From Sporofaciens musculi (GTDB lineage: Bacteria > Bacillota > Clostridia > Lachnospirales > Lachnospiraceae), in NCBI RefSeq assembly GCF_009830285.1, contig NZ_WUQX01000001.1:1798501-1862500 (forward strand): a stretch of DNA of 64,000 nt, in the 5' to 3' direction. Both the position numbers and the translations under genes were made by a program. Positions 9,760 through 64,000 of the stretch are shown here, piece after piece (position 1 is the first letter of the stretch; each line of letters begins with the position of its first letter). Below the pieces are notes generated by a model. That model did no database searches. It was not told where the DNA came from and worked only from the letters and a program-made list of their open reading frames with translations.

Positions 9760-9801
9760 ACAATAAAGTTTACAGATGACCGCAAGGGAGAAGAAAAGCA
9801 G

Positions 9802-10188: not shown

Positions 10189-10259
10189 TCTTAAGTAAAG
10201 GTTGTAGAAGCGTATAAGCTTTGAACAATAATATCAATATTCTAAGGAGGGAACCAAAA

Positions 10260-11557: not shown

Positions 11558-12868
11558 ATGGCTAAATTAAAAGTAGTTCATTACATCAATCAGTTCTTTG
11601 CACAGATTGGTGGAGAAGAAAAAGCAGATTATCCGGCAGAGCTTCGTGTTGGAGAGATTGTCGGACCAGGTCAGGCATTGACACAGCAGTTCGGTGAGGA
11701 CGCTGAGATTGTTGCTACAATCGTTTGTGGTGACTCTTATTTCAATGAGAATCTTGAGAAGGCAAAGGCAGACATTCTTGCTATGGTGAAGGAGCAGGCT
11801 CCGGATGTATTCGTGGCAGGTCCTGCATTTAACGCTGGACGTTACGGCGTTGCCTGTGGTACGATTGCAGCAGCAGTTCAGGAGGAGCTTGGTATTCCGG
11901 CTGTTACAGGCATGTATGTAGAGAACCCAGGCGCTGATATGTTTAAGACTCAGGTTTATATTGTATCTACAAAGAACAGTGCGGCAGGTATGAGAGACGC
12001 TGTTAAGAAGCTGGCTCCGTTAGCTGTTAAGGTAGGAAGGGGCGAGGCAATCGGCGCTTCCTCAGAGGAAGGATATATCCCGAACGGTGTTCGTGTGAAC
12101 TTCTTCGAGAAGGAGAGAGGTTCCCTTCGTGCCGTTAAGATGTTGATTAAGAAGCTTAATGACAAGCCGTTCGAGACTGAGTTCCCGATGCCTGATTTCG
12201 ACAGAGTTGACCCGAATCCGGCGGTTAAGGATCTGGCACATGCGAAGATCGCACTTGTTACCTCCGGCGGTATCGTACCGAAGGGCAATCCGGACCACAT
12301 TGAAAGCTCCAGCGCTTCACACTACGGCGAGTATGATATCGCAGGCGTTATGGATTTGACAGAAGCGACATACGAGACAGCCCACGGTGGATATGATCCG
12401 GTTTATGCAAATGAAGACTCTGACCGTGTATTACCGGTTGACGTACTTCGTGACATGGAGAAGGAAGGAAAGATTGGGGAGCTGCATCACCTGTTCTACA
12501 CAACCACAGGTAATGGTACAGCCGTTGCATCATCCAAGGCTTTCGCTGCTGAGTTCTCTCAGAAGCTTAAGAACGACGGTGTTGACGCAGTAATCCTCAC
12601 CTCCACATGAGGTACCTGTACTCGTTGCGGTGCAACGATGGTAAAAGAAGTAGAGAGAGCAGGAATCCCTGTTGTACACATCTGTACAGTAACTCCTATT
12701 TCTATGACAGTTGGCGCGAACAGAATCGTACCGGCTATCGCTATTCCACATCCTCTTGGAAATCCTGCATTAGATGCAGATGAGGAGAAGAACCTCAGAC
12801 GTAAGATTGTTGAGAAGGCGTTAGTTGCCCTTGAGACAGAGGTTGAGGGACAGACAATCTTTGATTAG
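11558..12868 (+). CDS. grdB: Glycine reductase selenoprotein B, GrdB (TGA read as selenocysteine)
   Basis: A 436-residue selenoprotein if the in-frame TGA at 12608-12610 is read as selenocysteine 351; otherwise the frame appears broken into a 350-residue piece and a short tail. The context TST-U-GTC-TRC forms a U-x-x-C redox motif, and both sides are typical GrdB sequence, so this is recoding and not a mutation. GrdB carries out the nucleophilic attack on the Schiff base formed on GrdE and passes a selenoether-bound carboxymethyl group to GrdA. A perfect seven-base hairpin begins 12 bases after the TGA. No selA/B/C/D genes lie in the window. Confidence 0.95.
12622..12638 (+). promoter_or_regulatory. 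SECIS-like hairpin after the grdB TGA
   Basis: TCGTTGC (12622-12628), loop GGT, GCAACGA (12632-12638): a perfect seven-pair hairpin starting 12 bases after the in-frame TGA. This is the placement used by bacterial SelB-binding SECIS elements, and the loop contains GU as in the E. coli fdhF element. Function is inferred from position and shape. Confidence 0.6.
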
Positions 12869-15010: not shown

Positions 15011-15077
15011 CTATCCGCCTGATAGGGCGGAGACAAACCCTTCTGTATCGAAGAAATGAAAGGTGGTAAATAAAGCA

Positions 15078-16616
15078 ATGAACAGTGTAATTAAAGGCGC
15101 CAGCTACGTGCTTGCGCATACGCCGCAGATGGTGGTATATAATGGAACGACTCAGACCACAGAGAGAATTGTAAATCCAGAGTCTGAGTATCTGAAAGAA
15201 TTGGAGAGCCATTTACGTTCCTATGAGGACTGCGTAAACTACTGGCCAAATCAGGTATATATCGGTAATGCGACACCGGAGGACCTTGCAGGCGTGGAGT
15301 TCCCATACTATGACAAGGTAAAAGAGGGCGCCCAGAGATATGGAAAATATGGCGAGATCATGCCAGAGGAGGAGTTTATCCTTCTGGTACAGGCATGCGA
15401 CCAGTTCGAGGTCGTTAAGATTGACAAGGATTTCGTCAGCGCCCACAAGGATGCATTTGCCAAGGACCCGATTATCACAGAGGATATTGCAGCAAGAGTT
15501 GAGGCCGGCGTAGAGCTGTCCGAAATCGAAGCAGCGGTAAAGGATGAGCATGCAGAGGGAATCTATGTGGCAGGCAAGCTTGTAGCTTGCGTAAAGAGAG
15601 CTCATGATATTGACGTAAACCTGTCCGCTCATGTTATGCATGAGAACCTGATGAGCAAGGCGTCAAGCGTACTGGCTCTGTTATACGGCGTCAAGAATGC
15701 AGGAATCAGCAAGGACGACATTGAGTATGTTATCGACTGTGCAGAGGAAGCATGTGGAGATATGAATCAGAGAGGCGGCGGCAACTTCGCGAAGGCAGCG
15801 GCAGAGATCGCAGGTCTTAACAATGCTACAGGCTCTGACAGCCGTGGCTTCTGTGCAGGACCATCTCATGCGCTTATTGAGGCAGCGGCATTGGTAAAAT
15901 CCGGCGCATACAAGTGTGTGGCTGTAACAGCAGGCGGATGTACCGCTAAGCTTGGTATGAACGGAAAAGACCATGTGAAGAAGGGACTTCCGATTTTAGA
16001 GGATTGTTTGGCAGGCTTCTGTGTCATCCTTTCCGAGAATGACGGAGAGAATCCAGAGATTAATCTTGATATTTTGGGACGCCATACGGTTGGAACAGGA
16101 AGCGCACCGCAGAACGTAATTGGAAGCCTTGTTGCCGACCCGCTTGAGAGAGCAGGACTTAAGATTACAGATATCGACAAATTCTCTCCTGAGATGCAGA
16201 ATCCGGATATCACGAAGCCGGCAGGAGCAGGAGATGTGCCGATGGCAAACTACAAGATGATTGCGGCTCTGGCTGTAAAGAGAGGCGAGCTTGACAGAAA
16301 AGAGCTGGCTTCCTTTAGCACCAACCACGGTCTTACCGGATGGGCGCCGACACAGGGACATATCCCGTCAGGTGTTCCGTACATCGGATTCGCAAGAGAG
16401 GATATCCTTGCAGGAAAGATTAAGACAGCCATGATTATCGGAAAAGGAAGTCTGTTCCTTGGACGTATGACCAACTTGTTCGACGGTGTTTCCTTCGTAA
16501 TCCAGGCAAATACAAAGGCAGAGGCTGAGAAAGCTTCCGGCGTATCTGAGGAAGAGGTAAAGGGATTGATCGCAAAGGCGATGAAGGATTTCGCAGCTTC
16601 CCTGATTGCAGAGTAA
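15078..16616 (+). CDS. grdC: Glycine/sarcosine/betaine reductase component C subunit beta, GrdC
   Basis: A 512-residue subunit of the acetyl-phosphate-forming protein C. It shares the thiolase/FabH-like fold; TAGGCTAKLGMNGKDH near residue 300 holds the candidate active cysteine. The N-terminus (VIKGASYVLAHTPQM) is the family beginning, so the ATG at 15078 is chosen over the GTG at 15063; AAAGGTGG lies 12 bases upstream. Protein C takes the acetyl group from GrdA and, with phosphate, releases acetyl phosphate for ATP synthesis. Separated from grdA by an internal terminator. Confidence 0.93.
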   Translation: MNSVIKGASYVLAHTPQMVVYNGTTQTTERIVNPESEYLKELESHLRSYEDCVNYWPNQVYIGNATPEDLAGVEFPYYDKVKEGAQRYGKYGEIMPEEEFILLVQACDQFEVVKIDKDFVSAHKDAFAKDPIITEDIAARVEAGVELSEIEAAVKDEHAEGIYVAGKLVACVKRAHDIDVNLSAHVMHENLMSKASSVLALLYGVKNAGISKDDIEYVIDCAEEACGDMNQRGGGNFAKAAAEIAGLNNATGSDSRGFCAGPSHALIEAAALVKSGAYKCVAVTAGGCTAKLGMNGKDHVKKGLPILEDCLAGFCVILSENDGENPEINLDILGRHTVGTGSAPQNVIGSLVADPLERAGLKITDIDKFSPEMQNPDITKPAGAGDVPMANYKMIAALAVKRGELDRKELASFSTNHGLTGWAPTQGHIPSGVPYIGFAREDILAGKIKTAMIIGKGSLFLGRMTNLFDGVSFVIQANTKAEAEKASGVSEEEVKGLIAKAMKDFAASLIAE

Positions 16617-16630
16617 GGGGGACGGTAACG

Positions 16631-17785
16631 ATGGCAAATAATATTGAGAGAATGATTGCCGATACCTTTATGGAGATGGCGCAGGGCCTTGAGACGGGAA
16701 GCTTTGGAAAGAGGCCGAAGGTAGCCCTCACTGGTATGGGCAGCGAGCATGGAGAGGAAAACTCCATGAAGGCAGCCGTAGAGGCGGCAAAAGACGGAAT
16801 CGACGTTTACTATATCGGAACATTAGAGGCAGAAGGCGTTACTACCATCAAAGTGGCCAACGATGAGGAAGGTCACGACCGTATGGAGGAGATGCTGAAA
16901 AACGGCGAGGTGGACGCAGCAGTTACCATGCATTTCCCGTTCCCAATCGGCGTTTCAACGGTAGGACGCTGTGTAACGCCGGCAACGGCAAAAGAGATGT
17001 TTATCGCAAACACAACCGGAACCTCCAGTACGGACCGTATTGAGGGAATGATTAAGAATGCGATTTACGGAATCATTACCGCTAAGGCCTGCGGAACAAA
17101 GAATCCTACAGTGGGTATCCTGAATGTAGACGGCGCGCGCCAGACAGAGAAGGCGTTAAAGCAGTTACAGGAAAAGGGATACGACATTGCATTTGCTGAG
17201 TCCGGCAGGGCAGACGGCGGATGTGTAATGAGAGGGAACGATGTGCTTCAGGCGTCACCGGATATCATGGTAACGGATTCATTAACCGGAAATATTCTGG
17301 TGAAGATGCTGTCCTCCTTTAACACAGGCGGAAGCTTCGAGGCCACAGGCTTTGGATATGGACCTGGAATCGGGGAAGGCTATGAGCAGTTAGTCATGAT
17401 TGTGTCAAGAGCAAGCGGCGCTCCGGTAATCGCCAATGCAATCCGTTATGCCGGCCAGCTCGTAAGAGGTAAAGTGTTCGAGGTTGCTAAGGCTGAGTTT
17501 GCAGCAGCGAAAAAGGCTGGACTTAAGGATGTTTTAGATGCGCTTAAGGCTTCTCAGAAGCCTGCAGGGGCCGCCGAAGAGGTGAAGGAGCCGCCGAAGG
17601 AGATTGTAACCGCTCAGATTGCAGGAATCGAGGTCATGGACTTAGAGGATGCAGTAAAAGCCCTGTGGAAGATTAACATCTACGCAGAGAGTGGAATGGG
17701 ATGTACGGGTCCAATCGTCAGAGTATCTGAGGCGAACCTTGCAAAAGCAGAGGAAGAGCTTAAGAAGGCTGGATATATTAACTAG
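16631..17785 (+). CDS. grdD: Glycine/sarcosine/betaine reductase component C subunit alpha, GrdD
   Basis: A 384-residue PlsX/phosphotransacetylase-like subunit of protein C. The C-terminal MGCTGPIVRV segment contains the family's reactive cysteine near residue 361, which carries the acetyl thioester before phosphorolysis. Motifs FNTGGSFEATGFGYGPGIGEG and ANAIRYAGQLVRGK in the second half are typical. It starts 15 bases after grdC with AGGGGGACGG as ribosome site. It ends the operon; a terminator follows. Confidence 0.93.
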   Translation: MANNIERMIADTFMEMAQGLETGSFGKRPKVALTGMGSEHGEENSMKAAVEAAKDGIDVYYIGTLEAEGVTTIKVANDEEGHDRMEEMLKNGEVDAAVTMHFPFPIGVSTVGRCVTPATAKEMFIANTTGTSSTDRIEGMIKNAIYGIITAKACGTKNPTVGILNVDGARQTEKALKQLQEKGYDIAFAESGRADGGCVMRGNDVLQASPDIMVTDSLTGNILVKMLSSFNTGGSFEATGFGYGPGIGEGYEQLVMIVSRASGAPVIANAIRYAGQLVRGKVFEVAKAEFAAAKKAGLKDVLDALKASQKPAGAAEEVKEPPKEIVTAQIAGIEVMDLEDAVKALWKINIYAESGMGCTGPIVRVSEANLAKAEEELKKAGYIN

Positions 17786-49630: not shown

Positions 49631-49666
49631 AAAGCGGTTGGCTAAGCAGGAAGATAGTAAAGGAAG

Positions 49667-49703
49667 CACGTTATTTCTGTAATAGGGAGTAATGTGTTTT
49701 TTT
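49667..49703 (+). terminator. Terminator of the two-component operon
   Basis: CACGTTATTTC (49667-49677) pairs with GGAGTAATGTG (49686-49696) with three wobble pairs, followed by T7. It isolates the large operon downstream. Confidence 0.7.
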
Positions 49704-49785
49704 ATGTAAACATTAATTTCTGAAAATTTAGAATCTATATTCAAATGTGTCGATTTACAACGATAATATTTTGATAATAAGGATT

Positions 49786-49815
49786 TTGTCTGAAATTTCC
49801 CCCAAAATATATGAT
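49786..49815 (+). promoter_or_regulatory. Probable promoter of the large unknown operon
   Basis: TTGTCT (49786-49791), 18 bases, TATGAT (49810-49815). The only plausible sigma-A site in the gap; leader of about 85 bases. Confidence 0.5.
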
Positions 49816-49904
49816 ACAATAAAAAATATGTGTGAGGACGAAAGATAAGGCAAGCTCTATGATACAAAAAGATATCCGCAAAAAGGGCGAAAGGAGAAAA
49901 AATA

Positions 49905-51296
49905 ATGGACGTATTCCAGAATAATGAAAGTTTAAAGCTCAGATTCCCAAGGACATATGAGGCGCTTAAAAATACCGGAGGAATGAAAATGAGAAGGGCC
50001 ATGGCCGCAGAGGATGCAGTCCGGACAACTTTTCTGGGGGTTACAAAGGAGGAGAAGGAATTTCTGTTGTTTGAAGGCGTGACTAAGGAGCGCCACACCT
50101 CCGGTTATCTCCACATAGAGGCAAAGGCTGTGAGAAAAAGTACGGGAGAGGTCTTAGACCAGAACCGCCAGGTGGTATTTTTTACCAGAGGGGGAGAGAA
50201 GAACGGCTTGCTTATGGGGCTTAAGATTAGCCAGGAGGCCCAAAAGGACTGTAAGGTGTGCCTTGAGTGGGGGATTGTAAAGGATAACGGCGTGATCACT
50301 AAGACCCAGGAGTACGACCTGGCAGAGTACGACCTGCTCCAAAATGAATATCATATCGCACATCCTTGCAGGAAGGAGGGACACCCAAAGGAAGACCCTT
50401 ATATCAATTATTATTTCTGGCGCAGTCCTGAGCATGGGGAATACGTGGATTATAAGTATCCAAACGGCCATAACCTCATGTGCAAATCAGAAGGTACGGC
50501 GTCGGCTTTAGGGCATGGGGTGCGAGAGATTTTGAGCGCGAGCCTGATTCTGGAAAATGAAAATGACTTGGTGGAGTATCCAGATTTTATCAGCAAGGTG
50601 GATTTCCATGAACAGGGGATTAAGTGGGGAGGTGTGGAGGACTGGAGGCGGCAAATCTCTGACCTTTTGAAATCAAACACAGGCTTTGTCTCCTACACCT
50701 TGTCGATCATATGTCTGTTGGAGGATATGGGGGAAAAACGGCATACGTTTCTAGTTACCAATAAGGAGGGCGTCTCGAACCTGCCTATGCTTCGCTTCTG
50801 CTGGGGCTGCCTTGGGGCGGGGACCATGGTTTCAACGGCAGAAGGGGACAAGGCGATTGAGGAGATCCGTACAGGCCACATGGTAGAGTCAGAGGGAGGA
50901 TTTCGGCGTGTGTGTAATACCTGGAAGGGAACAGAAAAGAATCCTGTGATTGTAATCAGGCTTGAGGACGGACGTAAGGTTATGGCCACTTCCAACCATC
51001 CATTCATTACAAAGGAGGGAATGATGGCTGCCAACGAGATTAAGAAAGGAACGCTTGTCAAGACAAGGGAGGGCGGCTTTCTTCCTGTTGCGGAGGCTTA
51101 CGCGGACTTCCTGGGCGAGATTGTAGTCTACAACCTTGAGGTGGAGGAGGAGGGGATCTTTTACGCAAATGGAATCGCCAGCGGAGATATGAGGCGCCAG
51201 AATTCTTATAAGGGCGAAAATGTGAGGGAAAAGATTGCAGAGGAATGGCGGCAGGACTTTGACAGTTTTATGGAGATGCTTAAGGGGGATGCATAA
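49905..51296 (+). CDS. Hint-domain (intein-like) protein, first gene of the unknown operon
   Basis: A 463-residue protein. Residues 1-300 are unrecognised, soluble, with no signal peptide. Residues 302-428 are a Hint domain: Cys302 in GCLGAGTMVSTAEG, then AIEEIRTGHMV, block B ATSNHPF with His365, and VYNLEVEEEGIFYANG. It ends in IASGDM, lacking the terminal His-Asn and nucleophile that splicing inteins need. N-terminal thioester chemistry is possible, full splicing is not expected. A 35-residue charged helix follows. The Shine-Dalgarno AAAGGAG fits. The next gene starts as this one stops. Confidence 0.75.
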   Translation: MDVFQNNESLKLRFPRTYEALKNTGGMKMRRAMAAEDAVRTTFLGVTKEEKEFLLFEGVTKERHTSGYLHIEAKAVRKSTGEVLDQNRQVVFFTRGGEKNGLLMGLKISQEAQKDCKVCLEWGIVKDNGVITKTQEYDLAEYDLLQNEYHIAHPCRKEGHPKEDPYINYYFWRSPEHGEYVDYKYPNGHNLMCKSEGTASALGHGVREILSASLILENENDLVEYPDFISKVDFHEQGIKWGGVEDWRRQISDLLKSNTGFVSYTLSIICLLEDMGEKRHTFLVTNKEGVSNLPMLRFCWGCLGAGTMVSTAEGDKAIEEIRTGHMVESEGGFRRVCNTWKGTEKNPVIVIRLEDGRKVMATSNHPFITKEGMMAANEIKKGTLVKTREGGFLPVAEAYADFLGEIVVYNLEVEEEGIFYANGIASGDMRRQNSYKGENVREKIAEEWRQDFDSFMEMLKGDA

Positions 51297-53506
51297 TGGG
51301 ACGAAGTGTTGAGGATATTTCGCGGGTGCAGATTTCCTATGACAGGGATACCTATGTCTGTGAGGCGTTTACGGAGGAAGCCTTTATGGGCGGCGAGATT
51401 CTGGTTGTGCTTAGCAATACCAGGGATACGAAGAATGAGGCGGCGCGGCTTGCGGTGTCGAAGGAGTGGCATGGTTTGGACGGCGTGGTTCGATGCGAAA
51501 AAGAGCTTTTAGCAGATGTAACGTATCTGTACCTGTATCTGGTGGATGCCCAGAAGATTGCCAGCAACGTGGTGAGGGTGTTTATTCATACTCCCTGCCT
51601 TAAAGGGTATCAACTGGGGGAGAGGGGCTTGGTTTATCTGATGCTGGATACCAAAACCAGCGATTACAGCCTGGCGCGTCAGTTGGCGGTGGGAAACGAA
51701 GGCGCCAAAATATCTCTGGATTTACCGGCCTGCGGTGTGCGTCTGCCTGAGCTTGGAATCTGGGGAAATGCGGCTTGCGCTTGTCTGTCACTGGCTTATC
51801 ATAGCCGTATCGACGGTGTGGATATCTGCGGGCCAGAGCTTTCCGGCGCGCAGGTGCTGCTTCGGGGACCGGAGGTTATAAGACTAGAGGTTTCAGAAAA
51901 TGTCCTTGTAGGGCAGGGAGATTTTGAAAAAGAGACGGTTATACAGACGGAAATCCGAAGGGGGATGGTGGTGGCTGCTACGGCAAGGCTTACGGCAGAG
52001 GAACAGAACAATACACTAAGCTTTTGGTGGGATTTGTCCGGTGAGGGACTAGACCCGTCGGGAGTTTATACTCTGCGTTTGCGCTATCTCACAGGAGAAC
52101 AGGGTGAAGGCCTGTCGGCCCCTGGCCCAGAGTATCCGCTTTTTCTTGGTCTGCCGAAGGTTCAGAGTGTGAGGGCTTCGGGAGAGGAAACGGTGGTCTG
52201 TCTTGGAGAGGAGATGCAGTATGAGGTTACAGAAGGGCGCCAAGACAGGCTGGTGTCGGAAAGTGAGATACGCCTTTCTGGCGGAATCACAGAGATAGAT
52301 GTCCGAATGTGTCAGGGAATTTCTTACGGGCCCTCCCTTCATGTGAAAACAGCCCTGCCGCGGTTTTTAAGTATAAAGCAGGGAAATGATACCTTTTACA
52401 GCCTGTGCCGTGTAAGGGAGGAAGTTCTAAAGGAAAGGGTGACGGTGCCTCTTGGAAGGTGGCTTGAGGGCTATGACAAGGGAGAGATTTTTTGGGTGAC
52501 GCAGGGGGAATTGGAAAGTATTCTTAGGATAGAGCCGCTTCTGACAGAACGGCTTGTCTCTGGCAGCGACAGCGTTTATGATGAGTTCGAGGAAATGCTG
52601 GGATGCTGTGCAAAAGATTATGAAACCATGGAAATACTTGTCAGGGCGGTTCTTGAACATGCGCCTTTGCGGGCAGAGGATATTCTGGCGTTCCGGTACA
52701 GATATCGGGTGAGCGAAGGGAGAGTGGATTTGGAGGCTGGGCTGTCTTTGGCGATCGAGTATGCTATTTACCAGAATATACCGGAGAATCAGAGGATGCT
52801 GTTGGAGGACGGTCAGCCCGTAGGAATATCCGACAGATTAGGCGGGGATGCTGGGTCTGATCGAACGGTAGATGCATCCCACAGGAATGGTTATGTGGGA
52901 ACCGGAACCTGTGACTGCCAGGTGGTTTTAAGAAACGGAAGGGTGGTGTTAGAGCCGTTTATTCAGGGATTTACTCAGGCCTCCTCCTATGTGATTCCGG
53001 CGTCTGGGCCTCTTGACAGTCAGGCACAGCTAGACGGCGGGGCGGGAGTGGCGGATTTTCTGGCTGACGGGATGGCGGCGCCCTTTGTGCGGCTGCTCTA
53101 TCCAATTGAGCGTATGGGGAGAAACAGTAAGGGGGAAATGCGGTATTTCCACAATATCTGTCTGGCGGCAGGCCAGAGCCTTCCTGCACTAATAAATGCG
53201 TCCCAGGCAATGCGGCGCCAAGAGCTGCCAAATCGGCTGGAGGAGGTTTCCCTTGCCGATTTGCGGGGGCGCGCTACCATCCGCGTGAGGATTTTGGTAA
53301 CGGTGAATAAGGTCTTACAGTGGGTATCCATGGGAACCACCGCGGGGGATATGGCGGATGCACTGGGAATTTCAAAGGGAAGGCTCGCACTTTGGCGTCA
53401 GACCTCCTTTGGGCCTTGTCCGGTGTTCGGGGATGAGCTTAGGAGTATGTGTCTGGTTTCCGGCGATATAATGGAGGTGAGCCAGGATGGGGCTTTTATT
53501 GGATAG
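51296..53506 (+). CDS. Unrecognised large protein of the operon (736 residues)
   Basis: No family recognised. No signal peptide or membrane helix. Residues 1-420 look like several beta-sandwich domains. Residues ~420-520 are helical. The C-terminal ~75 residues resemble a beta-grasp/SLBB-like unit (VTVNKVLQWVSMGTTAGDMADALG ... CLVSGDIMEV, abridged). The start overlaps the stop of the Hint gene by one base (ATAATGGG junction), and its end overlaps the next gene by 20 bases, so all are translationally coupled. Ribosome site AAGGGGG. Confidence 0.6.
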   Translation: MGRSVEDISRVQISYDRDTYVCEAFTEEAFMGGEILVVLSNTRDTKNEAARLAVSKEWHGLDGVVRCEKELLADVTYLYLYLVDAQKIASNVVRVFIHTPCLKGYQLGERGLVYLMLDTKTSDYSLARQLAVGNEGAKISLDLPACGVRLPELGIWGNAACACLSLAYHSRIDGVDICGPELSGAQVLLRGPEVIRLEVSENVLVGQGDFEKETVIQTEIRRGMVVAATARLTAEEQNNTLSFWWDLSGEGLDPSGVYTLRLRYLTGEQGEGLSAPGPEYPLFLGLPKVQSVRASGEETVVCLGEEMQYEVTEGRQDRLVSESEIRLSGGITEIDVRMCQGISYGPSLHVKTALPRFLSIKQGNDTFYSLCRVREEVLKERVTVPLGRWLEGYDKGEIFWVTQGELESILRIEPLLTERLVSGSDSVYDEFEEMLGCCAKDYETMEILVRAVLEHAPLRAEDILAFRYRYRVSEGRVDLEAGLSLAIEYAIYQNIPENQRMLLEDGQPVGISDRLGGDAGSDRTVDASHRNGYVGTGTCDCQVVLRNGRVVLEPFIQGFTQASSYVIPASGPLDSQAQLDGGAGVADFLADGMAAPFVRLLYPIERMGRNSKGEMRYFHNICLAAGQSLPALINASQAMRRQELPNRLEEVSLADLRGRATIRVRILVTVNKVLQWVSMGTTAGDMADALGISKGRLALWRQTSFGPCPVFGDELRSMCLVSGDIMEVSQDGAFIG

Positions 53507-54299
53507 AATCTTTACTTCATCTCCGATTCAAGATGAGAGTGGATTTTTGGAACGGCTTCAGGGGCTTTTAAATGGGCGGACGCCGGATTATCTGTGGGTA
53601 GACAACCGTTCTTCGCAGTACAGATGTTGGAGGATACAGAAGTTATATCTTACAGGTGAGAGGTTAGAGAGGGATACGGCTTTTTCTTATGGGGGCTGGA
53701 CGCTTGTGGTGCATAAAGGCAGCAGGATACACAGGCAGGAAAATGGCGGAAGACTTCAGGGAGGCTTTTCTTTCCGGAAGGAGGAGAAGCTCTTTTCAGG
53801 AGTCAGTCTTTCGCTGGATGAAAGAGGACGGTTCCTGTTTGAAATTACAATATTGGATGAAGAAGGGATTTCTGCGGAAATCCGGTATTTTACCAGAGGG
53901 TGGGATACCTTTCTGAGACGGTGGGGAGATGTTGAGGTCAGAGGAGAGGTGTTTAAGCTTCCTTCCGGCGCGGCGCTTAGGGTGTGTTTTTCTCCTTTGG
54001 TACAGGAGGAAACCATATTTCAGTTGCAGGAGACTTTGGAGGTGAAAAGCAGTTTTACATCTGTCTATGGAGATGCGCTTTCCCTTCAGCTTCCGGCAGG
54101 GTTTCCATTGGTCTTTCAGCGGGCTTCAGAACCAGAAGGAAGGTGTTACTTAGCGCCAGGGGGAAGGGCATATGGATATGGTGTAAAGAAGCTTGAGTTA
54201 GGAATGTCAGGCACAGAGTATGTGGGAATGTCAGGGGGGAGCTTGCCTTTGCTTTGTACCTGGGCAGCCTGCATGGTATGGGATAGGGCAGTTGGATAG
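53487..54299 (+). CDS. Unrecognised protein of the operon, probably the 5' part of a frameshifted gene
   Basis: A 270-residue beta-rich protein starting with AGGTGAGCC as ribosome site inside the end of the previous gene. The reading frame loses sense after a G6 run at 54234-54239. The adjacent frame continues (GQTAYLAMPGGAILFPEQRS) to a T8 run at 54366-54373, after which the third frame is the 720-residue gene below. Skipping one base at each run would join them into one product of about 1,010 residues. Function unknown. Confidence 0.5.
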   Translation: MGLLLDRIFTSSPIQDESGFLERLQGLLNGRTPDYLWVDNRSSQYRCWRIQKLYLTGERLERDTAFSYGGWTLVVHKGSRIHRQENGGRLQGGFSFRKEEKLFSGVSLSLDERGRFLFEITILDEEGISAEIRYFTRGWDTFLRRWGDVEVRGEVFKLPSGAALRVCFSPLVQEETIFQLQETLEVKSSFTSVYGDALSLQLPAGFPLVFQRASEPEGRCYLAPGGRAYGYGVKKLELGMSGTEYVGMSGGSLPLLCTWAACMVWDRAVG

Positions 54300-54319
54300 G
54301 CGGGGACAGACGGCTTACC

Positions 54320-56482
54320 TTGCCATGCCTGGGGGGGCAATATTATTCCCAGAGCAGCGAAGCACCTTTTTTTTGCAAGGCAAAAGAGGGAGTTTACAGA
54401 TATTGCGAGCTTCCGGCGTTTACATTATCGGAGGAGGGACCTCTTTCGGTGTTTCCGTTTAGTGGATGCCGTTCTTTAGCAGGGGTGGCTCAGTTCATTG
54501 AGCAGAACTGTCTTGGCAACATTCGGCGCTTAGCTGTGGAGGAAGGCGCGGGGGAGTTTGCGCCAAACCGCATGAAAATGAAGGCGGGAGAGGAGCCTTT
54601 GCCTTCACGCTGCATAAGAATTGCAGAGGATAGAGAGGGGCAGTTACTCATCAGCAGAAGCGGCATGGCGGTATGGCTTGAATCAGGGAGGGTCAAGTGG
54701 ATCTCCCTTTTAAGCTTTGGCTGTCCTTTTCCTGGTCTGGCATTTACCCTTCCTCACAGGAGGTTGATGGCCGCGGTTCAGACAAACGAGCTGTTTCTCG
54801 TTCTGGCAAGCGTCCGGCAGATTACAGGGCTTGCAGGCACTCCCTATTCCATAACCAGGGAGTGCCTAAAAAGGGCGGAAAAAGGAGGTTATCCCTATGG
54901 TAAGCAGCTTGAGGAGTTGGTGGGGACGACTTATCTGACTAAGGAGGAATTGTGCCGCGCAGTAAGAGAACGGACGAAGGAACAGGAGGTTTCGGAGGCT
55001 TTGCTTAATGCCTGCGACCATTTTACAGTGGAGCTGGACGGATGGACATTTCGGATGGGAGAGGGCAGTTGGGGGAAGAAGGATTGTATATTTCTGGTAA
55101 AGATGGGTGTCGCTTCTTCAGTCCTGGAGTTGATTAAGGAGCCTCTGTGCTGGAGCCTTATACCCGATAAGAAACAGATTGACCTGGCCCAAAGGTCTGT
55201 CCTTAGGGCTAAGGAGAGGGCCTGGGAATTGAAGGATGCAGGGCTTCTTCGGATACTGACAGATTCCAAATGGCAGGGCCTTTTGTGTTTCCATGTGCCG
55301 GTGGACGTAAATAATCTTCCGTCTGAGCTTGGGTTTCTGGCAGGAGGTCTGGGCGTAGGGCTTTTGCAGGGATTGTATGCGGCCTGCTCTGCGTCAGGGA
55401 CATGGCAGGCGTTCATCGATTACCAGGATATGGCTCATCAGTATTATCCGGATATGAGGGAATTTGGGTTCAAAGTCCTTGAATTGGGGGTGGGGATTGA
55501 AAATGGGAGGACAAAAAGCTTCTCTGCCAGCGCAGAGCTTCTCATAAATCGAATCTTTGGCGGCAGAACGGAGGCAGGAGAGGACAGCCAGACAGGTAAT
55601 AATCTGGTTTTTGACGGATATTACCAGAGGGAGGAAGGCGGGGGACATTATGTGTTTAAGCTTCGGCAGGAGCAGAGCTACACTGTTTCCGGCTGCGCCT
55701 TATGCCGCCTTCTGGTAAACGGCGGCGCTTTGCAGGCAAACGGTCAGAAGGGAAGCTTTGTCCTTAATGGAGACATGACATTTGACGATATGGGTAAAAT
55801 GGATCTCTACTCTTATGACAGGATTGGGTATCATGGCTTGGCGGTTAATCTGGATATGAGGGATGGAGAAAATGATTTTACGGTAAATATGGAAAGCCTC
55901 CAATTCGATTTGTCAGAGGCGTCAGTACGGGAGCATTCCTTTGCTCAGTGCTTCCCGTTAAAGCCTGTAGGAATCTCCTATGTCAGAGGTAGAACGCCCA
56001 TGCAGGCGGGCTATGCAGAACTTAAGGTATCAAGGGAGGTAAGCGGGATAGAGGAGGAGTGGTATGGAATCTTTTGGCAGATTGACCTTGGGAACATGGG
56101 AAGCCTGGTAAAGCAGTATTCCCTTGCCTTAGAGCTTTTGACCGCCTGGAAGCCCTCTCCTGAGGATGAAATTAAGGGGGCGGACGGGAGTTTTTTGTGT
56201 GGGACGCCTAAGTATTTCACAGGGATACGGCTTTTGGCAAACGGAAATGCTGTCGGGTGGGAGATTCCCTTAGAAGGCGTGCTGACCCTGGGCTTTGGGG
56301 GCGTTGAGCTAAAGTCGAGAGAGAGGGAAGAAACAGGCGGGATGGAATATTATTTCCGGTTTCGCAATTTTGCTCTAAGGTTTCTGGGGCTTCGGTTTCC
56401 ACAGACCAATCATGATATGTATTTAATTTCAGACGAGAATCAGACCTTGGGGTGGTACGGGTCTTTTTGCGAAGGAGAGTGA
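54320..56482 (+). CDS. Unrecognised large protein of the operon (up to 720 residues), probably the 3' part of a frameshifted gene
   Basis: No convincing ribosome site precedes the first ATG, supporting the view that this is the continuation of the 53487 frame. A helical middle (~150-260) is followed by long amphipathic beta-rich stretches. The C-terminal ~120 residues (GNAVGWEIPLEGVLTLGFGG, YFRFRNFALRFLGLRFP, LGWYGSF) resemble the repeated beta units in the giant protein downstream. Cytoplasmic by absence of a signal. Ends six bases before the metallo-beta-lactamase gene. Confidence 0.55.
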   Translation: MPCLGGQYYSQSSEAPFFCKAKEGVYRYCELPAFTLSEEGPLSVFPFSGCRSLAGVAQFIEQNCLGNIRRLAVEEGAGEFAPNRMKMKAGEEPLPSRCIRIAEDREGQLLISRSGMAVWLESGRVKWISLLSFGCPFPGLAFTLPHRRLMAAVQTNELFLVLASVRQITGLAGTPYSITRECLKRAEKGGYPYGKQLEELVGTTYLTKEELCRAVRERTKEQEVSEALLNACDHFTVELDGWTFRMGEGSWGKKDCIFLVKMGVASSVLELIKEPLCWSLIPDKKQIDLAQRSVLRAKERAWELKDAGLLRILTDSKWQGLLCFHVPVDVNNLPSELGFLAGGLGVGLLQGLYAACSASGTWQAFIDYQDMAHQYYPDMREFGFKVLELGVGIENGRTKSFSASAELLINRIFGGRTEAGEDSQTGNNLVFDGYYQREEGGGHYVFKLRQEQSYTVSGCALCRLLVNGGALQANGQKGSFVLNGDMTFDDMGKMDLYSYDRIGYHGLAVNLDMRDGENDFTVNMESLQFDLSEASVREHSFAQCFPLKPVGISYVRGRTPMQAGYAELKVSREVSGIEEEWYGIFWQIDLGNMGSLVKQYSLALELLTAWKPSPEDEIKGADGSFLCGTPKYFTGIRLLANGNAVGWEIPLEGVLTLGFGGVELKSREREETGGMEYYFRFRNFALRFLGLRFPQTNHDMYLISDENQTLGWYGSFCEGE

Positions 56483-56487
56483 AGAAA

Positions 56488-57732
56488 GTGGCTTATACAG
56501 TACGAATCAGCTTCCTCAATGTCAATCAGGGGATGGCGGGAGTGGTTGAAATCTATGACGGGCTGATCGGAACTATGCCTGTGCCGCCGATTCCCGCTGC
56601 CGGAGGCGCATTGGTGCCTGCGCTGCCTGTGGGCGCGTCCCTTGTGGGAATTATGCTGGTTGATTTTGGATGTCAGGGCTCTGCGGGAATGGCGAACGAT
56701 TTCTCTGTACAGTACGTTCAGCAGTTGATGGCCCTGCGGGGAATGAACGTAATCGACGCGGTATCCATAAGCCATCTGGACGACGACCATTACTCCCTGC
56801 TTCGCCATCTGGGGGCAGGAACCGTGATTGAGGATTTGTTTATCGGCGGGGAGGATGCAAACCGAAATAATATTGGAATACTGCTAGGGCAGCTTGCGGC
56901 AGGAGGAATCACCTTCAACAATATTTTCCATCAATTTAACGGGTATGCCGAGAATGGCCCCGACCCTTATCTGAACGAGGATGGTGTATGGGTATTAGGG
57001 AATCAGGACAATGTGTGCTTTAAGATATTGCTGGCAAATGCCCAGAATTTGTACAATCCGCCCCCTAGAAGGGCTGCGGATTTTATCAACACAGGATCTA
57101 TCATGCTTCTTTTGTATTCCTTCCAGTTAAATGGAAATGTACGGATGATAGAGAGCTCTTTTTTATTTACAGGGGATGCCACCACAAAAACGCTGATGTT
57201 GTTTAACGGCCTGCCATTTGCAAACAACTTCCTTGGCGAGCCGAAAGGGATGTCTGTTCCCCACCACGGCTCGGACAGCTCCATTCGCTCCAGAGGAGGG
57301 AATTACACAGACCTTACGAATCTGCTGACCCGTTATCAGCCGGCGACGGCTGTGGTAAGCGCCGGATATCATATGGGGTACAAGCATCCGGGGAAATACT
57401 CCATGTACTATTTTCGGGAGGCTCTGAGAAATCCAGGAGGCCCCTTTCAGATACCTGCTCCCGCTGTACTGCCGGATTCTGTTCCCCCTCCGGCGGCGTC
57501 TACCCATGTGAATTCCATTTATCAGGGAACGGGAAGCCGTGCAAGAATCCGGATGAATGGAGGAAACGGGTATATAAGAATCCAGAATTCTAATTTTTAT
57601 CCTATCGAGGAAATGGTGAATTTGTATAATACATCTACCGCGTGGGGAACGCCTTTTGCGAGAAGAAATGTGCATATTGATTTTAACAGTGTCAATCAGG
57701 GAAGTTATACGATTACCTGGAATGAATTCTAA
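56488..57732 (+). CDS. ComEC-type metallo-beta-lactamase fold protein, stand-alone
   Basis: A 414-residue protein. The metal site reads SHLDDDH (His96, Asp98, Asp100, His101), the H-x-D-x-D-H form of the ComEC/Rec2 branch. LFTGDATT and VPHHGSD, both ComEC hallmarks, follow, and SAGYHMGYKHP corresponds to the last motif. There are no membrane helices, so it is a soluble hydrolase, perhaps a nuclease or phosphodiesterase. The GTG at 56488 follows AAGGAG; the preceding gene stops at 56482. Confidence 0.8.
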   Translation: MAYTVRISFLNVNQGMAGVVEIYDGLIGTMPVPPIPAAGGALVPALPVGASLVGIMLVDFGCQGSAGMANDFSVQYVQQLMALRGMNVIDAVSISHLDDDHYSLLRHLGAGTVIEDLFIGGEDANRNNIGILLGQLAAGGITFNNIFHQFNGYAENGPDPYLNEDGVWVLGNQDNVCFKILLANAQNLYNPPPRRAADFINTGSIMLLLYSFQLNGNVRMIESSFLFTGDATTKTLMLFNGLPFANNFLGEPKGMSVPHHGSDSSIRSRGGNYTDLTNLLTRYQPATAVVSAGYHMGYKHPGKYSMYYFREALRNPGGPFQIPAPAVLPDSVPPPAASTHVNSIYQGTGSRARIRMNGGNGYIRIQNSNFYPIEEMVNLYNTSTAWGTPFARRNVHIDFNSVNQGSYTITWNEF

Positions 57733-57755
57733 GTACAAGAGAGAGGATCAGGAGG

Positions 57756-60700
57756 ATGAATCAAAGATACCAATGGGTCAGAGAGCTTTTTGCCTTTGGT
57801 CAGCCGGAGATTCTGATTAGAAAAGAAATCCGAGACGGTCAGTCAGAGCTTGAGAAGGTATTTAGCCGGATTCCGGACAGGCTGGGGATGGAGGCCTTGG
57901 CGGTTTCAGAGCCAATGTTTTGGGAGAGAAGGGACGGCTATACCGCTAAGGGGAATGTTGTCTGGAACGGGAGGGATTACATAATTAAGATAAGGGGAGG
58001 GGAGCCGGATATGGGAGAAAGTATTTCGGTTTCTTTAAACCTTAAGAACAAGGGCGGCCCTATGTCCTTAGATGAGTGCTATCCTCTGGCGGGAGTCCGG
58101 CTGGCGGATGATTTTTTTGCAGTCAAGCGGGAGGATTTTTATGAGGGAATCTATGCGGCGTCCTCTGAGATTGGCTTCCTGTGCGGCAGAGGAGAAGAAC
58201 AGGGCTTAGGGGCTAACTTCCGGTTATGCCTTCGTTTTACAAAAGATTGTCCAATGTGGAGACGGTTCGCGGTACTGATGCCGGATGCAGACATAGAGAT
58301 TCTCTTTGAGGGAAGGATTTTTCCCGCTTCCCATCCAGTCTCCTATGAGGTGACAGGGGAATATCAGCGTCTTGTGCAGTTTCCCTTCTGGAAGGGGAAT
58401 ATCAGCACCACCAGATGCAGGCTTACCCTTCAAAGCCACACAGAGGATATCTATACGCTGCCAAGGGAGGTCGGCGGCGTGTCCGTTTGGGAGGAATACA
58501 TGAGCCAGGCGTATTGGGAGGGTGCGTTTGATTTAAAGCTTGAGTCTTTTGGCTTACCCGAAATCTGGCTGAGAGAAAAGCTGTACATGCATGGACAGCA
58601 GTTTAATCTGTCGGCTTCATTTGGGGAAGGTCTTGTGGTCGGCCGTGTGTTTGAGTTGATATCTGTCCTGTCTGGACGGACAGATATGATTTTGCCGCCG
58701 GACTGGCTTTCTCTGGATTCCGTAAAGCTTACGGATGTGGCGTTACGGATGCAGAAGGAGGTGGCAGTGGAAGCAGTATGGCCGGCCAACAAAAAAGAGG
58801 TATTTCAGGGCGTGGCTCTGGTAATCGAGCTGCCTTTGCCAGCGGTTCCCATTCCTTTTTTTGCCGATCAGGATGAGCCTGCCGCTGCGGCTTTCATGCT
58901 TCAGTGGGATCTTTTGCAGAGCTCTCCCATGCCTTCTTCCACACTGGCGTTTCGGAGTCATTGGAAGGGATATGGAGTGAACCTAAATCTGGATTTATCA
59001 GAGTTTTCCTTTATCGGCCGCCTTTACCGAGAGGCAGAAGGAAAATTGGAGACAGGGGCTTCTAACGGAATTTTTCCAGGTTTTTCCAAGCTGGTTCTTA
59101 CTGACCTTCGTGTGGCCGGCAATCTTCCTGAATCCTATTATGCCATCCAGGTTACATTTGCAGAACCGAAAGAGGAGAAACTCCCCCTGGCAGGGAGGAT
59201 GTTGGATATTATCCGAATCGGCGGATGGGGCTTCTATACGCCGGAGGGGCTTGGTCTGGGGCTTGACCTTCAGGTGGTTTTGCTTGGGGCGGTTTTTGGG
59301 ATTTCAGGCAGTTATGCTAAGGAGGGGGAACGTCAGGTGATGACCCTTTTAGGAGAGCTTCATACCCCGCTGTCGTTGTTAGGGCTTGTGGGCGAGCTCC
59401 TGGGAAATCCTTTAAGCGGAGACGAATTTGATTTAAGTATTACACGGCTTCACTTTAGATATGTGACGGAACTAGGGGAGAGGGAGAGCAGGCTTTCAGA
59501 GGGGAATGTCAGGAATTTTGAATTTTTGGCGGAGATTGATTTTAATTGGAGTGCAGTTGATTTAAAGGCGAAGACGGTGTTTGAACTTAAATGGAGCCGT
59601 AAGGAGGAGTTTCAGATGAGCCTGTCTGCCCAGGTGGAATTCTTTGGCTTTCTGGCGAAGGCTCTCTGTGATGTAACCTCAAGGGACGGGACGCTTGAGA
59701 TGGAAGGGGTGCGCTTTGAAATCCGCATGGCGGGGCTTGACCTGACGGCAAGGCAGCAGCAGGAGAGCGGTAGTCAGGTTTTGCGCCTTGAGATTCGCGA
59801 GATTAATCTTGGAAGCTTGTTAGAAGCTCTGGTGGATTGTATCATTCCAGGGACAAGCTGGTATCTGCCCTGGCCTTTTGGGATATTAAAGCAGGTGACC
59901 CTTAAGGATTTGTCGGTGATGATTGACAATACGAAAGGGATTGTGCGGGTAAAATATGGAATCGACCTGAAAATACTGGTATTTCATTTAAAGAGTATTG
60001 TACTGGAGTATGGGGACGGACGAAACGGGCAGGAGGAGTATTTTACCCTGACGCTGGATTTGGGATTGGTAACGGGAGAGAGGGCGGCATTGGAAGATAA
60101 TTCAGAGCCCTACGTCATGGATTTCTTAAAAGGCTTATATCCGCCGATTCCCAATCTTGGAAATTCTAAGTTCCGCCTTCGCTATCTTGCCATTGGCCAG
60201 AGGGTTAAGGTGGAGGTTCCAAGGACATTTGACGAGGCTGGGATTAGGGATGTCCTTTCGCAGCTTCGCAGACAGCTTCGAGAGGACGGCGCCCCTGTCC
60301 TGGATGCAGAGAATAACTGGGTGGCGGCTCTTTGGTTTACGTTGATGGACAGCATTGATGTGACGGTGCTTCTGTGTGATCCCCGCATTTATGGACTTCA
60401 GCTTGAGATTGGCAAAGGCTGTGACATGACAAAGGATTTGGCGGGGCTTAAGCTTGTCGTCCTGTACAGCAAGGTAACAGAGAATATCGGTATGTTCTAT
60501 GCCAGGTTGTCCCTGCCGGAAGCCTTCCGAAAAATCGAGCTTGGCGCAGTTAAGCTTCAGCTTGGGGAGGCTGCGGTTGCCATTTATACCAACGGCGATT
60601 TTAAGATTGACCTTGGGTTCCCCCATGGCGGCGATTTCTCCCGTTCCTTTGGGCTTACTTATCTTATTTTCAGTGGAAAAGGAGGCTTTTATCTGGGCGT

Positions 60701-63700
60701 TCTTCACGGCGAGACGTCTGCCCAGGTGCCAGAGGCTTCAAGGGGGCATTTTGACACGGTGTTAGAGCTTGGGGTGGGGATCAGCGCAGGTTTTGAGCGA
60801 GATTTTTCCTTAGGGCCAGTGCGTTTTGGCGCTAGTATCCAGATGGTTGCAATCTTTCAGGGAGTTATTGCACAGTATGTACCCCAGGAGTGTGATAGAA
60901 AGGACGCCACGTATTTTAAGGTGAGGGCCATGGCAGGGGTGACGGCCTCTGTGTATGGGGAAGTGGATTTTGTGGTTTTGAAGATTAGTTTTTCTGTAAA
61001 TCTGTCCGTGACTGTGGACCTTACCATTGAAAGCTACAGGAAGACCCTTCTTAGGCTTCAGGTACGGGCAGCGGTGCGGGCATTTATCAAAATTTTGTTT
61101 ATCAAGATTCATTTTAGTTTTGACTTTCAGTGGAACCCTGTCTTTACACTGGGGGAGGATTCCCTGGCGCCTTGGGAGACGCCGGTTCGTATGGCTAAAA
61201 GGGAGACGCCAAAGTATGTTCTGGACTTTCGGGCGCTCAGAGTGTTTGAGCATCCAAGGGAGATTGAGGCTATGCTGACTCCCTACGGCGGGGTGGAGAG
61301 GGCTTCTTTAAACGGGATTTCAGGAGGAGAGGTGCTGCGTCGTGTTGCCGTTCTGCCTTTGCTGTATGGATACCAGGACGGTACGGCAAAACGCTGCCAA
61401 TTTGAAAGCTTGGGTGAGTCGCCTGTGGGAGTGCTGGCAGCGGCATTGCTTCGGCGCTGCTGTCTTGCTCTTGGAATGGGGGAGGAGATTCCATTTGAAG
61501 CTTTAGAATGGCTGGCCAGTGAGCTGGCGAGGCCGGAGGTATTTGATAGGGGCTTTGGGTGGGAGATTTTGGAGGAATTCCTGACGGACAATCTTCATGT
61601 GCGTTTCCTTCCCTGGGAGCGTAAGGATACCAATGAGGAGGAACACAGGATTCCCTTTCCGATTCTGCCTTTGGCGGCGGTTTGCTGGCAGAGCGGAGAT
61701 ATTTTCCAGCAGTATGACCTGTCCTTGGAACCACTGATTACTACAGAAATGCTTAGGAAAATGGAGGATTATTATTCCATGCTGCGTCCAAAAGGGACAG
61801 GACTTTTGGAGAATCTGGCCAGAAATCGGGGAGATGGACTTCCAATGGCAAAGTGGATGTTCTGTGATTATTTCTACCTGTTTTCCAAAGTTGTGGTGTC
61901 TCAGGCATTGCAGCATTATCCAAAAGGGGAACCGGCGGCGTCTCTTTCGGCGTTGACAGAGCAGGTCTTAAAAGAGGAGGTGCTTAATTCCATCAGCGGC
62001 TTTGTATCAAGGAGTGTGCTTGGAGGCATGCGGTTTGCCTATGAGGATAGAGGAGAGATGGCGACAGAGAGCCTTTTTACCTATGCAAAGCAGCAGTATG
62101 ATGTAGGGGGACAGCCTGACAGTCAGAAAGCTTCTGTACAGGGAGAAAATCCGGCAGAAGAAATGATTTACTGTATAAGGAGCACCAAAGCTGGAGGCTG
62201 GTTTGACCTTGATGAGATACAGATGCATTTGACTCCAGAGGACGTGGAATTTCCGCCTTCGTCTATGGAAGTGTCTATGGACTGTAAGGTGCTGCCCTAT
62301 TACCAGACCAAACAACGGATTCTGGAATTAAAGGGCGTAATTGAGGTGGAAGGAATTCCTTTGCGCCGCATTTATACGATAAACGGAACTTTACCGAAGA
62401 AATATCGGGTGGAAGTCTGTGAGGGGGAGGAAATACGTGACATTGAGGGCAGGGTGCGGCCTTGCCGTATATTGCGCGTACCTCTGACTTGGGCTGCCAA
62501 GGGTAAGTTTGGCGTGGAATGTCTGGGGCAGGAGGCTGCTGGTATACTGGATACCTTAGACCTTGAACGGGTAGAAATGGCAGAGTGCTATCGCGCTGCC
62601 AATGCCCCTGGCGAGGAAGGAAGCGGTCTTGCGGTTGTTGATGGGGAAATATTTCTGTTCCGGCAGAATCTAAGCATGGAGGCCCAAAAGCCGCTTAAGG
62701 GACGCAAGATCAACGGCGCCAGGAACAGTGCGTATCTGTCAGGGCAGCGGCAGGAGTTTCTAAGGCTTCTTAAGGATGCGTCCAGGGTGAATTCCAGAGG
62801 ATATTTTCTGACCTGTGACGTACCAGAAGAGGCAGTAAAAGAGGGATTTTTAGAGCTTTTGTTTTTGCTGTACGCACAGGGAGAGGCTGACAGCCTTGTG
62901 GTGGATTATGAGGACAGCCAGAGGCACTCCCATCGTCCGGTGGTGATGACAGAGGAAACCTATGACACGCCGGTGTATCGTTCGGGCCATACAGGGATTT
63001 CCCTTGAGATGGACGAGCCGGAGACATTTTTATCCCAACCCTTTCAGATGCTTCTAAGCAGGGTAGAGTCAGCGAAAGAGAGGCAGAACGTCTCGTATCC
63101 TATGCATTACGGCATACCCTTGGAGGAAGGAAGGGGATTTACGCCAAGTGGGTTAAGCCTTCCGGTGGTGCCTCTGACAGAAGGAGAGAGGGCGAGGTTT
63201 ACGCAGATTCTTCCCTTGTATCGGTGTTTTACTGATGATGAGGACCCCTATGGAGGGATTCTGGATTATGAGAGTTTAAAAATCCGGTTTGCATTGCTGG
63301 ATGTAACGGGAAATGAAACCGGAGAGGGGCTTTCGATGGACGTGGAATTAGGCTATACAGACCCCTTGGAGTCTCCGAGCGTTTATCCCAAGACCTGGTT
63401 TGGCTACAGCCTCCGTGACAGTGGAGGGAATTTGGAGGTTCAGGTGACGGTTGCCTGTAAGAATCTGGAAGATGGTCTGGATGAGGAGGAGATTTTGCTT
63501 GCCAGGCAGGCCTACTTTCAACTTCTGCAAAGGGATGCAGAGCTTTGGCTTACGGTGATGGGAAATCGTCAGAAGCAGGAAAAGAAGGATTTGTTGGATT
63601 ATTTGGATGAGCTGCGTAAGGGATATCTGCCAAAGCGCCAAGTTACGTTTTGCCAGTCTGTCCCCCGTCCTTTGGATGAGGCGGTTTACGTTGACGTGTG

Positions 63701-64000
63701 CCTTGTGATTGAGAGGGACGCCTCCTATTTATCCTCCCTGCTTCCCTCAGAGAGGGTAAGGCAGGCGGTATCCGTGGCAAAAGCGGAGGTTCCTCCAATG
63801 GAGGATGGGATTTTGGATACGCAGATTGCCAGATTGGGAAGTACGGGAGAGCTGTATCATCTTCATTTTCCAGAATGGGAAATTGAAGAAGGGGCCGTTG
63901 CTTATTCCTTAGCGCCTCTGAGCAAAAATCTGATATCCTTGTCAGAGCTTCAGGTGTACACCCTGTCGGGGGAGGAGGCGTCTGTCAGCTACTCGGATGT
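57756..64000 (+). CDS. Giant beta-rich protein, 3' end outside the window
   Basis: An open frame of 2,081 codons from the ATG at 57756 (AGGAGG two bases upstream, a second GAGAGGA earlier) to the window end with no stop. No signal peptide. The first ~1,150 residues are amphipathic beta segments in a recurring pattern (KLTLKDLSV-type strands, FKIDLGFPHGGDF, GPVRFGASIQM, KILFIKIHFSFDF), like proteins that form long beta-sheets or lipid-binding grooves. Later parts alternate helical and beta regions. I have a weak memory of similar large proteins in the DUF6603 group, untested. Function unknown; last visible gene of the operon. Confidence 0.75.
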   Translation, partial: MNQRYQWVRELFAFGQPEILIRKEIRDGQSELEKVFSRIPDRLGMEALAVSEPMFWERRDGYTAKGNVVWNGRDYIIKIRGGEPDMGESISVSLNLKNKGGPMSLDECYPLAGVRLADDFFAVKREDFYEGIYAASSEIGFLCGRGEEQGLGANFRLCLRFTKDCPMWRRFAVLMPDADIEILFEGRIFPASHPVSYEVTGEYQRLVQFPFWKGNISTTRCRLTLQSHTEDIYTLPREVGGVSVWEEYMSQAYWEGAFDLKLESFGLPEIWLREKLYMHGQQFNLSASFGEGLVVGRVFELISVLSGRTDMILPPDWLSLDSVKLTDVALRMQKEVAVEAVWPANKKEVFQGVALVIELPLPAVPIPFFADQDEPAAAAFMLQWDLLQSSPMPSSTLAFRSHWKGYGVNLNLDLSEFSFIGRLYREAEGKLETGASNGIFPGFSKLVLTDLRVAGNLPESYYAIQVTFAEPKEEKLPLAGRMLDIIRIGGWGFYTPEGLGLGLDLQVVLLGAVFGISGSYAKEGERQVMTLLGELHTPLSLLGLVGELLGNPLSGDEFDLSITRLHFRYVTELGERESRLSEGNVRNFEFLAEIDFNWSAVDLKAKTVFELKWSRKEEFQMSLSAQVEFFGFLAKALCDVTSRDGTLEMEGVRFEIRMAGLDLTARQQQESGSQVLRLEIREINLGSLLEALVDCIIPGTSWYLPWPFGILKQVTLKDLSVMIDNTKGIVRVKYGIDLKILVFHLKSIVLEYGDGRNGQEEYFTLTLDLGLVTGERAALEDNSEPYVMDFLKGLYPPIPNLGNSKFRLRYLAIGQRVKVEVPRTFDEAGIRDVLSQLRRQLREDGAPVLDAENNWVAALWFTLMDSIDVTVLLCDPRIYGLQLEIGKGCDMTKDLAGLKLVVLYSKVTENIGMFYARLSLPEAFRKIELGAVKLQLGEAAVAIYTNGDFKIDLGFPHGGDFSRSFGLTYLIFSGKGGFYLGVLHGETSAQVPEASRGHFDTVLELGVGISAGFERDFSLGPVRFGASIQMVAIFQGVIAQYVPQECDRKDATYFKVRAMAGVTASVYGEVDFVVLKISFSVNLSVTVDLTIESYRKTLLRLQVRAAVRAFIKILFIKIHFSFDFQWNPVFTLGEDSLAPWETPVRMAKRETPKYVLDFRALRVFEHPREIEAMLTPYGGVERASLNGISGGEVLRRVAVLPLLYGYQDGTAKRCQFESLGESPVGVLAAALLRRCCLALGMGEEIPFEALEWLASELARPEVFDRGFGWEILEEFLTDNLHVRFLPWERKDTNEEEHRIPFPILPLAAVCWQSGDIFQQYDLSLEPLITTEMLRKMEDYYSMLRPKGTGLLENLARNRGDGLPMAKWMFCDYFYLFSKVVVSQALQHYPKGEPAASLSALTEQVLKEEVLNSISGFVSRSVLGGMRFAYEDRGEMATESLFTYAKQQYDVGGQPDSQKASVQGENPAEEMIYCIRSTKAGGWFDLDEIQMHLTPEDVEFPPSSMEVSMDCKVLPYYQTKQRILELKGVIEVEGIPLRRIYTINGTLPKKYRVEVCEGEEIRDIEGRVRPCRILRVPLTWAAKGKFGVECLGQEAAGILDTLDLERVEMAECYRAANAPGEEGSGLAVVDGEIFLFRQNLSMEAQKPLKGRKINGARNSAYLSGQRQEFLRLLKDASRVNSRGYFLTCDVPEEAVKEGFLELLFLLYAQGEADSLVVDYEDSQRHSHRPVVMTEETYDTPVYRSGHTGISLEMDEPETFLSQPFQMLLSRVESAKERQNVSYPMHYGIPLEEGRGFTPSGLSLPVVPLTEGERARFTQILPLYRCFTDDEDPYGGILDYESLKIRFALLDVTGNETGEGLSMDVELGYTDPLESPSVYPKTWFGYSLRDSGGNLEVQVTVACKNLEDGLDEEEILLARQAYFQLLQRDAELWLTVMGNRQKQEKKDLLDYLDELRKGYLPKRQVTFCQSVPRPLDEAVYVDVCLVIERDASYLSSLLPSERVRQAVSVAKAEVPPMEDGILDTQIARLGSTGELYHLHFPEWEIEEGAVAYSLAPLSKNLISLSELQVYTLSGEEASVSYSD

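Follow-up and report, generated by a model that had tools for sequence, protein, structure and literature searches.

Polymorphic toxin systems, in the portion of PMC3482391 that bears on this comparison, combine a Hint autoprocessing domain with a variable nuclease-type effector and have a patchy distribution. These features are also found in a five-gene operon of Sporofaciens musculi (Lachnospiraceae), located in a 64,000-nucleotide stretch of contig NZ_WUQX01000001.1 (positions 1,798,501 to 1,862,500; hereafter the window). The operon encodes a Hint protein, two proteins termed P2 and P3 (the latter in two pieces here), a soluble ComEC-type metallo-beta-lactamase-fold hydrolase (MBL), which is a predicted nuclease, and a giant protein. 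Unlike the systems treated in that portion of the source, this operon carries Hint and nuclease on separate proteins, without a toxin domain after Hint, and no trafficking domain or immunity gene was recognized. In particular, an immunity gene was recognized neither in the operon nor downstream of it, nor among the annotated neighbors of the related locus in Tistrella.

The MBL shares with ComEC/Rec2 a beta-lactamase-like domain with metal ligands and a sequence relation. This ComEC domain is described as a Mn-dependent nuclease in the relevant portions of PMC8579336 and PMC12455585. However, the window enzyme is stand-alone, soluble, 426 residues long and placed inside an unrelated operon, and scored 16.2 bits against the 190.05-bit cut-off for the full competence protein (TIGR00361). 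Enzymes of the DNase I/EEP superfamily, with conserved active-site positions, fill the same gene position (the slot) in 22 of 80 related loci, where they are set in the same chassis of P2, P3 and giant, whereas the slot of the window holds the other family. The MBL also weakly matched LmuA-type effectors of Lamassu over ~47 residues, but no other Lamassu part was recognized and the other scanned proteins gave no match. An LmuB (SMC-like) partner was not matched by PADLOC in P2, the 720-residue piece of P3 or the giant of the window, the 270-residue P3 piece being left out of that scan. Long antiparallel amphipathic strands predicted in the giant resemble those of outer-membrane beta-barrel proteins and ApoB-type lipid sheets, but the giant has no Sec-like start, occurs also in monoderm bacteria, and has no visible sequence relation to them. 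Tc/Rhs toxin complexes differ by their RHS/YD repeats; no RHS family was found by Pfam in the window proteins or in 13 giants. The original prediction could match the locus to no described system, and family, fold and literature searches likewise placed it in no known pathway. As no known system was found to fit it in the libraries and open-access literature searched, we regard the set as new.

Recurrence of the gene set and its discrete insertion

Of 255 pattern matches in a one-genome-per-species collection, 212 were recognized as relatives by a profile of the conserved core of the giant (~residues 650-1145, window ~59700-61190), and the best 80 of the 212 were kept (L026-L105). These 80 loci span 12 phyla according to their record names, and the counts over them given here come from a plus-strand hidden Markov model scan. 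P3 was present in 75 loci, and the five without it, some of which are short or cut contigs, stay in the denominators. The loci were cut ~10 kb upstream of the core, so the counts for P2 (at least 50 of 80) and Hint (at least 12 of 80) are lower bounds. For 20 loci cut upstream, the parent genomes were searched as well, and 15 of them have Hint on the same strand, 0.5-4.0 kb past the cut, the shared contig being inferred from coordinates; the best Hint match lay off the expected place in L042, L043 and L055, and L041 and L079 gave weak matches alone. The full order Hint-P2-P3-MBL-giant was identified on records named as plasmids, namely Tistrella mobilis pTM1 and Embleya NBC_00896. With P3 beside the giant core in nearly all loci and the full order in these two genomes, the proposal of an uncharacterized multi-gene system whose members co-occur across genomes was borne out. 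The genes are inherited together, P2, P3 and the giant co-diverging tightly (r 0.90-0.96) and the nuclease less so (r 0.64-0.83).

In S. musculi, the operon is a discrete ~16-kb insert. DNA of the upstream histidine kinase and response regulator was matched in all 11 genus relatives searched (partially in some), and that of the RidA-like and Mrp-like genes, which come next after the giant in the genome beyond the window, in 10 of the 11. Ten relatives had both flanks on one contig, separated by ~95-135 bp in seven (G003, G004, G005, G006, G007, G008 and G011), by ~1 kb in G001 and G002, and by ~4.4 kb in G009, with one open reading frame (ORF) in the gap of G001 and several in that of G009. 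The corresponding distance here, from the response-regulator stop to the RidA start, is 16,084 bp. In five empty sites compared base by base, left homology ends at the end of the response regulator (~49620), and right homology restarts within the last codons of the giant in three and slightly later in two. Because of these boundaries, the insert consists of the operon and little else. With 50.2%, its GC content exceeds that of the window on its left side (45.4%) and of the ~16 kb on its right side (42.0%), and no integrase-like gene appeared within it in the ORF list of the window. Counting the S. musculi genome itself, the MBL gene was found once among the 12 genus genomes searched (in this one), the giant in five of 397 from the family, and the giant core in one of 398 from the phylum.

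Several variants of the locus were also observed. Shorter loci that we call type B, in three genomes of the family, Azospirillum and Mycetohabitans (L020, L022, L024, L014 and L017), consist of a small protein (230-285 residues), P3 and the giant, and neither MBL nor EEP was found in them. In the three copies from the family, the giant starts with a stretch containing NFGHQ. The type B small protein also occurs in L073, together with MBL, and in L098, together with another slot gene. On Paenibacillus pART37 (L013:6942-8878), a protein that looks hydrolase-like by eye (Pfam below cut-off) and a NAL1/trypsin-like protease precede P3; from this locus, the position upstream of P3 may vary too. Nearly identical giant cores in L069 and L071, similarly named records of metagenome-assembled genomes assigned to Muribaculaceae (Bacteroidota) and Blautia (Bacillota), reflect either mis-binning or very recent transfer. 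Additionally, a collagen-repeat plus Kelch protein lies directly 3' of the giant in Mucilaginibacter (L101:17894-20026).

The exchangeable enzyme, the Hint protein and the chassis

The gene between P3 and the giant encodes an MBL in 35 of the 80 loci and an EEP enzyme in 22; 18 have neither there, and the remaining five are those without P3. Among the 18, four carry EEP and one MBL upstream of P3, nine are cyanobacterial loci with small-gene pairs, and four have other arrangements. MBL or EEP is present somewhere in 64 of 80 loci, and both together in none. Two or three tandem MBL genes lie between P3 and the giant in L031, L034, L039, L044 and L055. The nine cyanobacterial loci (L065, L067, L070, L074, L081, L086, L087, L089 and L095) have in place of MBL/EEP an unrelated pair of small proteins (94-180 and 168-197 residues), and the one pair scanned gave no Pfam family above cut-off.

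The MBL of the window (56452..57732, plus strand) had been predicted to be a soluble ComEC-type enzyme, and it does retain the metal motif set HLDDDH / GDA / HHG / HP. At least one of these motifs escaped a simple motif search in about half of the 45 MBL ORFs. When 20 of these were aligned, the ligand positions proved invariant or nearly so. The best PDB matches of the MBL profile were ComEC proteins (E 8e-22), and the pneumococcal phosphorylcholine esterase CbpE accounted for three further matches (E 2e-9 to 1e-7). In 18 aligned EEP proteins, Asn7, Glu59, His220, Asn254 and His390 were invariant and Asp252 nearly so, and their best PDB matches were DNase I and DNase gamma. MBL and EEP are unrelated folds exchanged in one gene position with their active-site motifs intact. 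As the strongest functional clue, this alternation of two folds with DNase relatives suggests that a DNA (or phosphodiester) hydrolase is at work in the system, and judging from these relatives the slot effector quite probably cuts DNA.

The Hint protein (49905..51296, plus strand, 463 residues) has a ~300-residue N-terminal part without a known fold, a Hint domain at ~300-427 and a short tail. Its predicted domain was recovered by Pfam (PF07591) and by TIGR01445 and TIGR01443 above cut-off. Cys302 and His365 are invariant across an alignment that comprises 13 Hint proteins (two partial) and excludes the Hint ORFs of L028 and L037. Splicing inteins end in His-Asn. Here, the domain ends with ANGI-like motifs and then Gly-Asp in 12 of 13 proteins, and this ending makes cleavage on the N-side of the domain likelier than splicing. 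Nine of the 13 continue with ~35-55 tail residues, and eight of these nine have an aromatic-x-x-Asp-[Phe/Tyr/Val] motif that is perhaps a docking or leaving peptide; the other four stop 7-13 residues past the domain. No toxin domain follows Hint in the 13 aligned sequences, in which 7 to about 55 residues remain beyond the Hint end.

P2, P3 and the giant matched no curated family above cut-off, except for LysM in many other giants (10 of 13 scanned with Pfam). P2 (51296..53506, plus strand, 736 residues) carries a C-terminal RGRA...VPxGTT...DLPLLxGDxI motif, which we take to recall a beta-grasp/SLBB domain. P3 (53487..56482, plus strand) is broken here into ORFs 53487-54299 (270 residues) and 54320-56482 (720 residues). 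It had been read as one split protein of ~1,010 residues, and it is indeed a single gene in relatives (ORFs of 915-1,086 residues in L026-L029). Each of the four close P3 homologues compared followed one frame of the window DNA as far as ~54230 and a different frame starting at ~54341 or further on, and the break between these points is either an assembly error or real. The giant starts at 57756 on the plus strand and continues past the end of the window to 65612. It had been predicted to exceed 2,081 residues, and extension of the contig gave 2,618. Based on class-level structural matches, its residues 1-1145 may form long amphipathic, porin-like sheets. DUF6603 (PF20248), considered as a candidate family, was absent from the Pfam matches of the window giant with E values up to 0.1 and gave no match in a genome search, in which the control genomes had no match as well. 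Homology found no support for the beta-rich C-terminal patterns proposed to be shared among these proteins: profile comparisons of P2-P3, P3-giant and P2-giant gave a probability of <=0.3%.

In line with the proposed absence of signal peptides, none of the six window ORFs has a Sec-like start according to our own heuristic, which is not SignalP. By the same heuristic, such starts were found in the 80 loci on 3 of 43 MBL and 4 of 27 EEP ORFs, on none of the P3 (0/75), P2 (0/52) or Hint (0/12) ORFs, and on 1 of 80 giants. Because 7 of 70 nuclease ORFs have them, some of the nucleases probably leave the cytoplasm.

Expression signals and neighboring genes

All operon ORFs are on the plus strand with touching or overlapping ends, as first described. 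The isolating terminator and single promoter proposed upstream could not be confirmed: one terminator-like match was found, on the minus strand, with 0.6 expected, and five promoter-like matches, three on the plus strand, each 9/12, with 1.3 expected in total. The three weak plus-strand matches lie in the leader 5' of the Hint gene (49631..49904), which forms the 5' end of the insert; its left junction is the 3' end of the response-regulator gene.

Elsewhere in the window, the genes at 11558-12610 and 15063-17785 resemble those for glycine/betaine reductase components. ORF 11558-12610 terminates at a stop following LTST, where we would expect the selenocysteine UGA of GrdB. Downstream of the operon in locus L003 (7126-9016), a 227-residue protein overlaps with one that resembles adenine methyltransferases, and by eye the two look like a restriction-modification pair. 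At 9600-10619 of this locus, two ORFs that are NusG-like by eye precede a polysaccharide gene cluster, as is the case where such clusters are under processive antitermination.

Competing explanations for the system

We propose, with about an even chance of being right, that the operon is a horizontally moving biological-conflict system in which a new chassis of giant proteins is armed with a DNase. This chassis would comprise P2, P3 and the giant, and the small enzyme between P3 and the giant would be its effector, a metal-dependent DNA-cutting hydrolase that is a ComEC-type MBL here and a DNase I-type EEP elsewhere. The Hint protein would be produced as a precursor and act as a self-processing partner. 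The giant may fold into a large porin-like structure of amphipathic beta-sheets, which would hold the nuclease or let it pass, and the LysM domains of many relatives' giants could serve for glycan binding. A single complex of the chassis proteins and the effector is fairly likely, and a purpose in conflict, whether other cells or incoming DNA are attacked, is evenly balanced. The LysM domains would suit a position at the cell surface, although no export route is known for the chassis; action outside the cytoplasm is slightly less likely than not. In a more elaborate and improbable form of the proposal, the system would be a new class of protein machine: with the help of P2 and P3, the Sec-independent giant would curl up as one or several porin-like beta barrels, thread or shelter an interchangeable free-standing DNase (ComEC-type or DNase I-type) and bring it into another cell, with a Hint-processed partner, as a plug-in weapon platform shared horizontally across at least 12 phyla.

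Intracellular defense against phage or plasmid DNA, in which the chassis senses invasion and MBL or EEP degrades the DNA, is an unlikely alternative that would explain the nuclease-type effector, patchy distribution and discrete insert. It agrees with the 63 of 70 nuclease ORFs without a Sec-like start and the weak similarity that PADLOC found between the MBL and both LmuA and PDC-M48B (E 3e-4 and 5e-4, spanning 47-48 residues), but PADLOC matched neither P2, the 720-residue P3 piece nor the giant of the window, no ATPase or other usual sensor domain was recognized in the window's set, and the Sec-like starts on the other nucleases and the LysM domains in giants speak against it. Those two features, together with the ComEC and DNase I relatives and the CbpE matches, would suit a surface complex with a phosphodiesterase that serves nutrition or DNA uptake by scavenging or processing phosphodiester polymers such as extracellular DNA. 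However, the chassis and most nucleases lack export signals and the recurring set includes no transporter or competence gene. This explanation is less likely still.

The predicted sheets of the giant also raise the idea of a lipid-binding or transfer machine, in which the giant's open amphipathic sheet would resemble ApoB or the bridge-like transfer proteins and the hydrolase would act on lipid headgroups. This is very unlikely, as all matches are class-level, with porins scoring higher in one comparison, and the interchange of ComEC-type with DNase I-type enzymes speaks for nucleic acid. Membership in a prophage, tail-like particle or contractile injection system is largely refuted and highly improbable: one relative lies in a predicted viral contig and the chassis lacks Sec-like starts, but a tblastn search of 50,697 phage records with the core of the window giant gave no match, and no sheath, tube, tail, portal or baseplate genes were recognized in the syntenic loci.

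Taken together, this 16-kb set corresponds to no described system that we found, and its chassis families have no curated model or solved relative. If the conflict proposal is true, the set would represent a new kind of delivery or defense machine in environmental and gut bacteria, one that would hide under labels such as 'hypothetical protein' and 'LysM domain-containing protein'.

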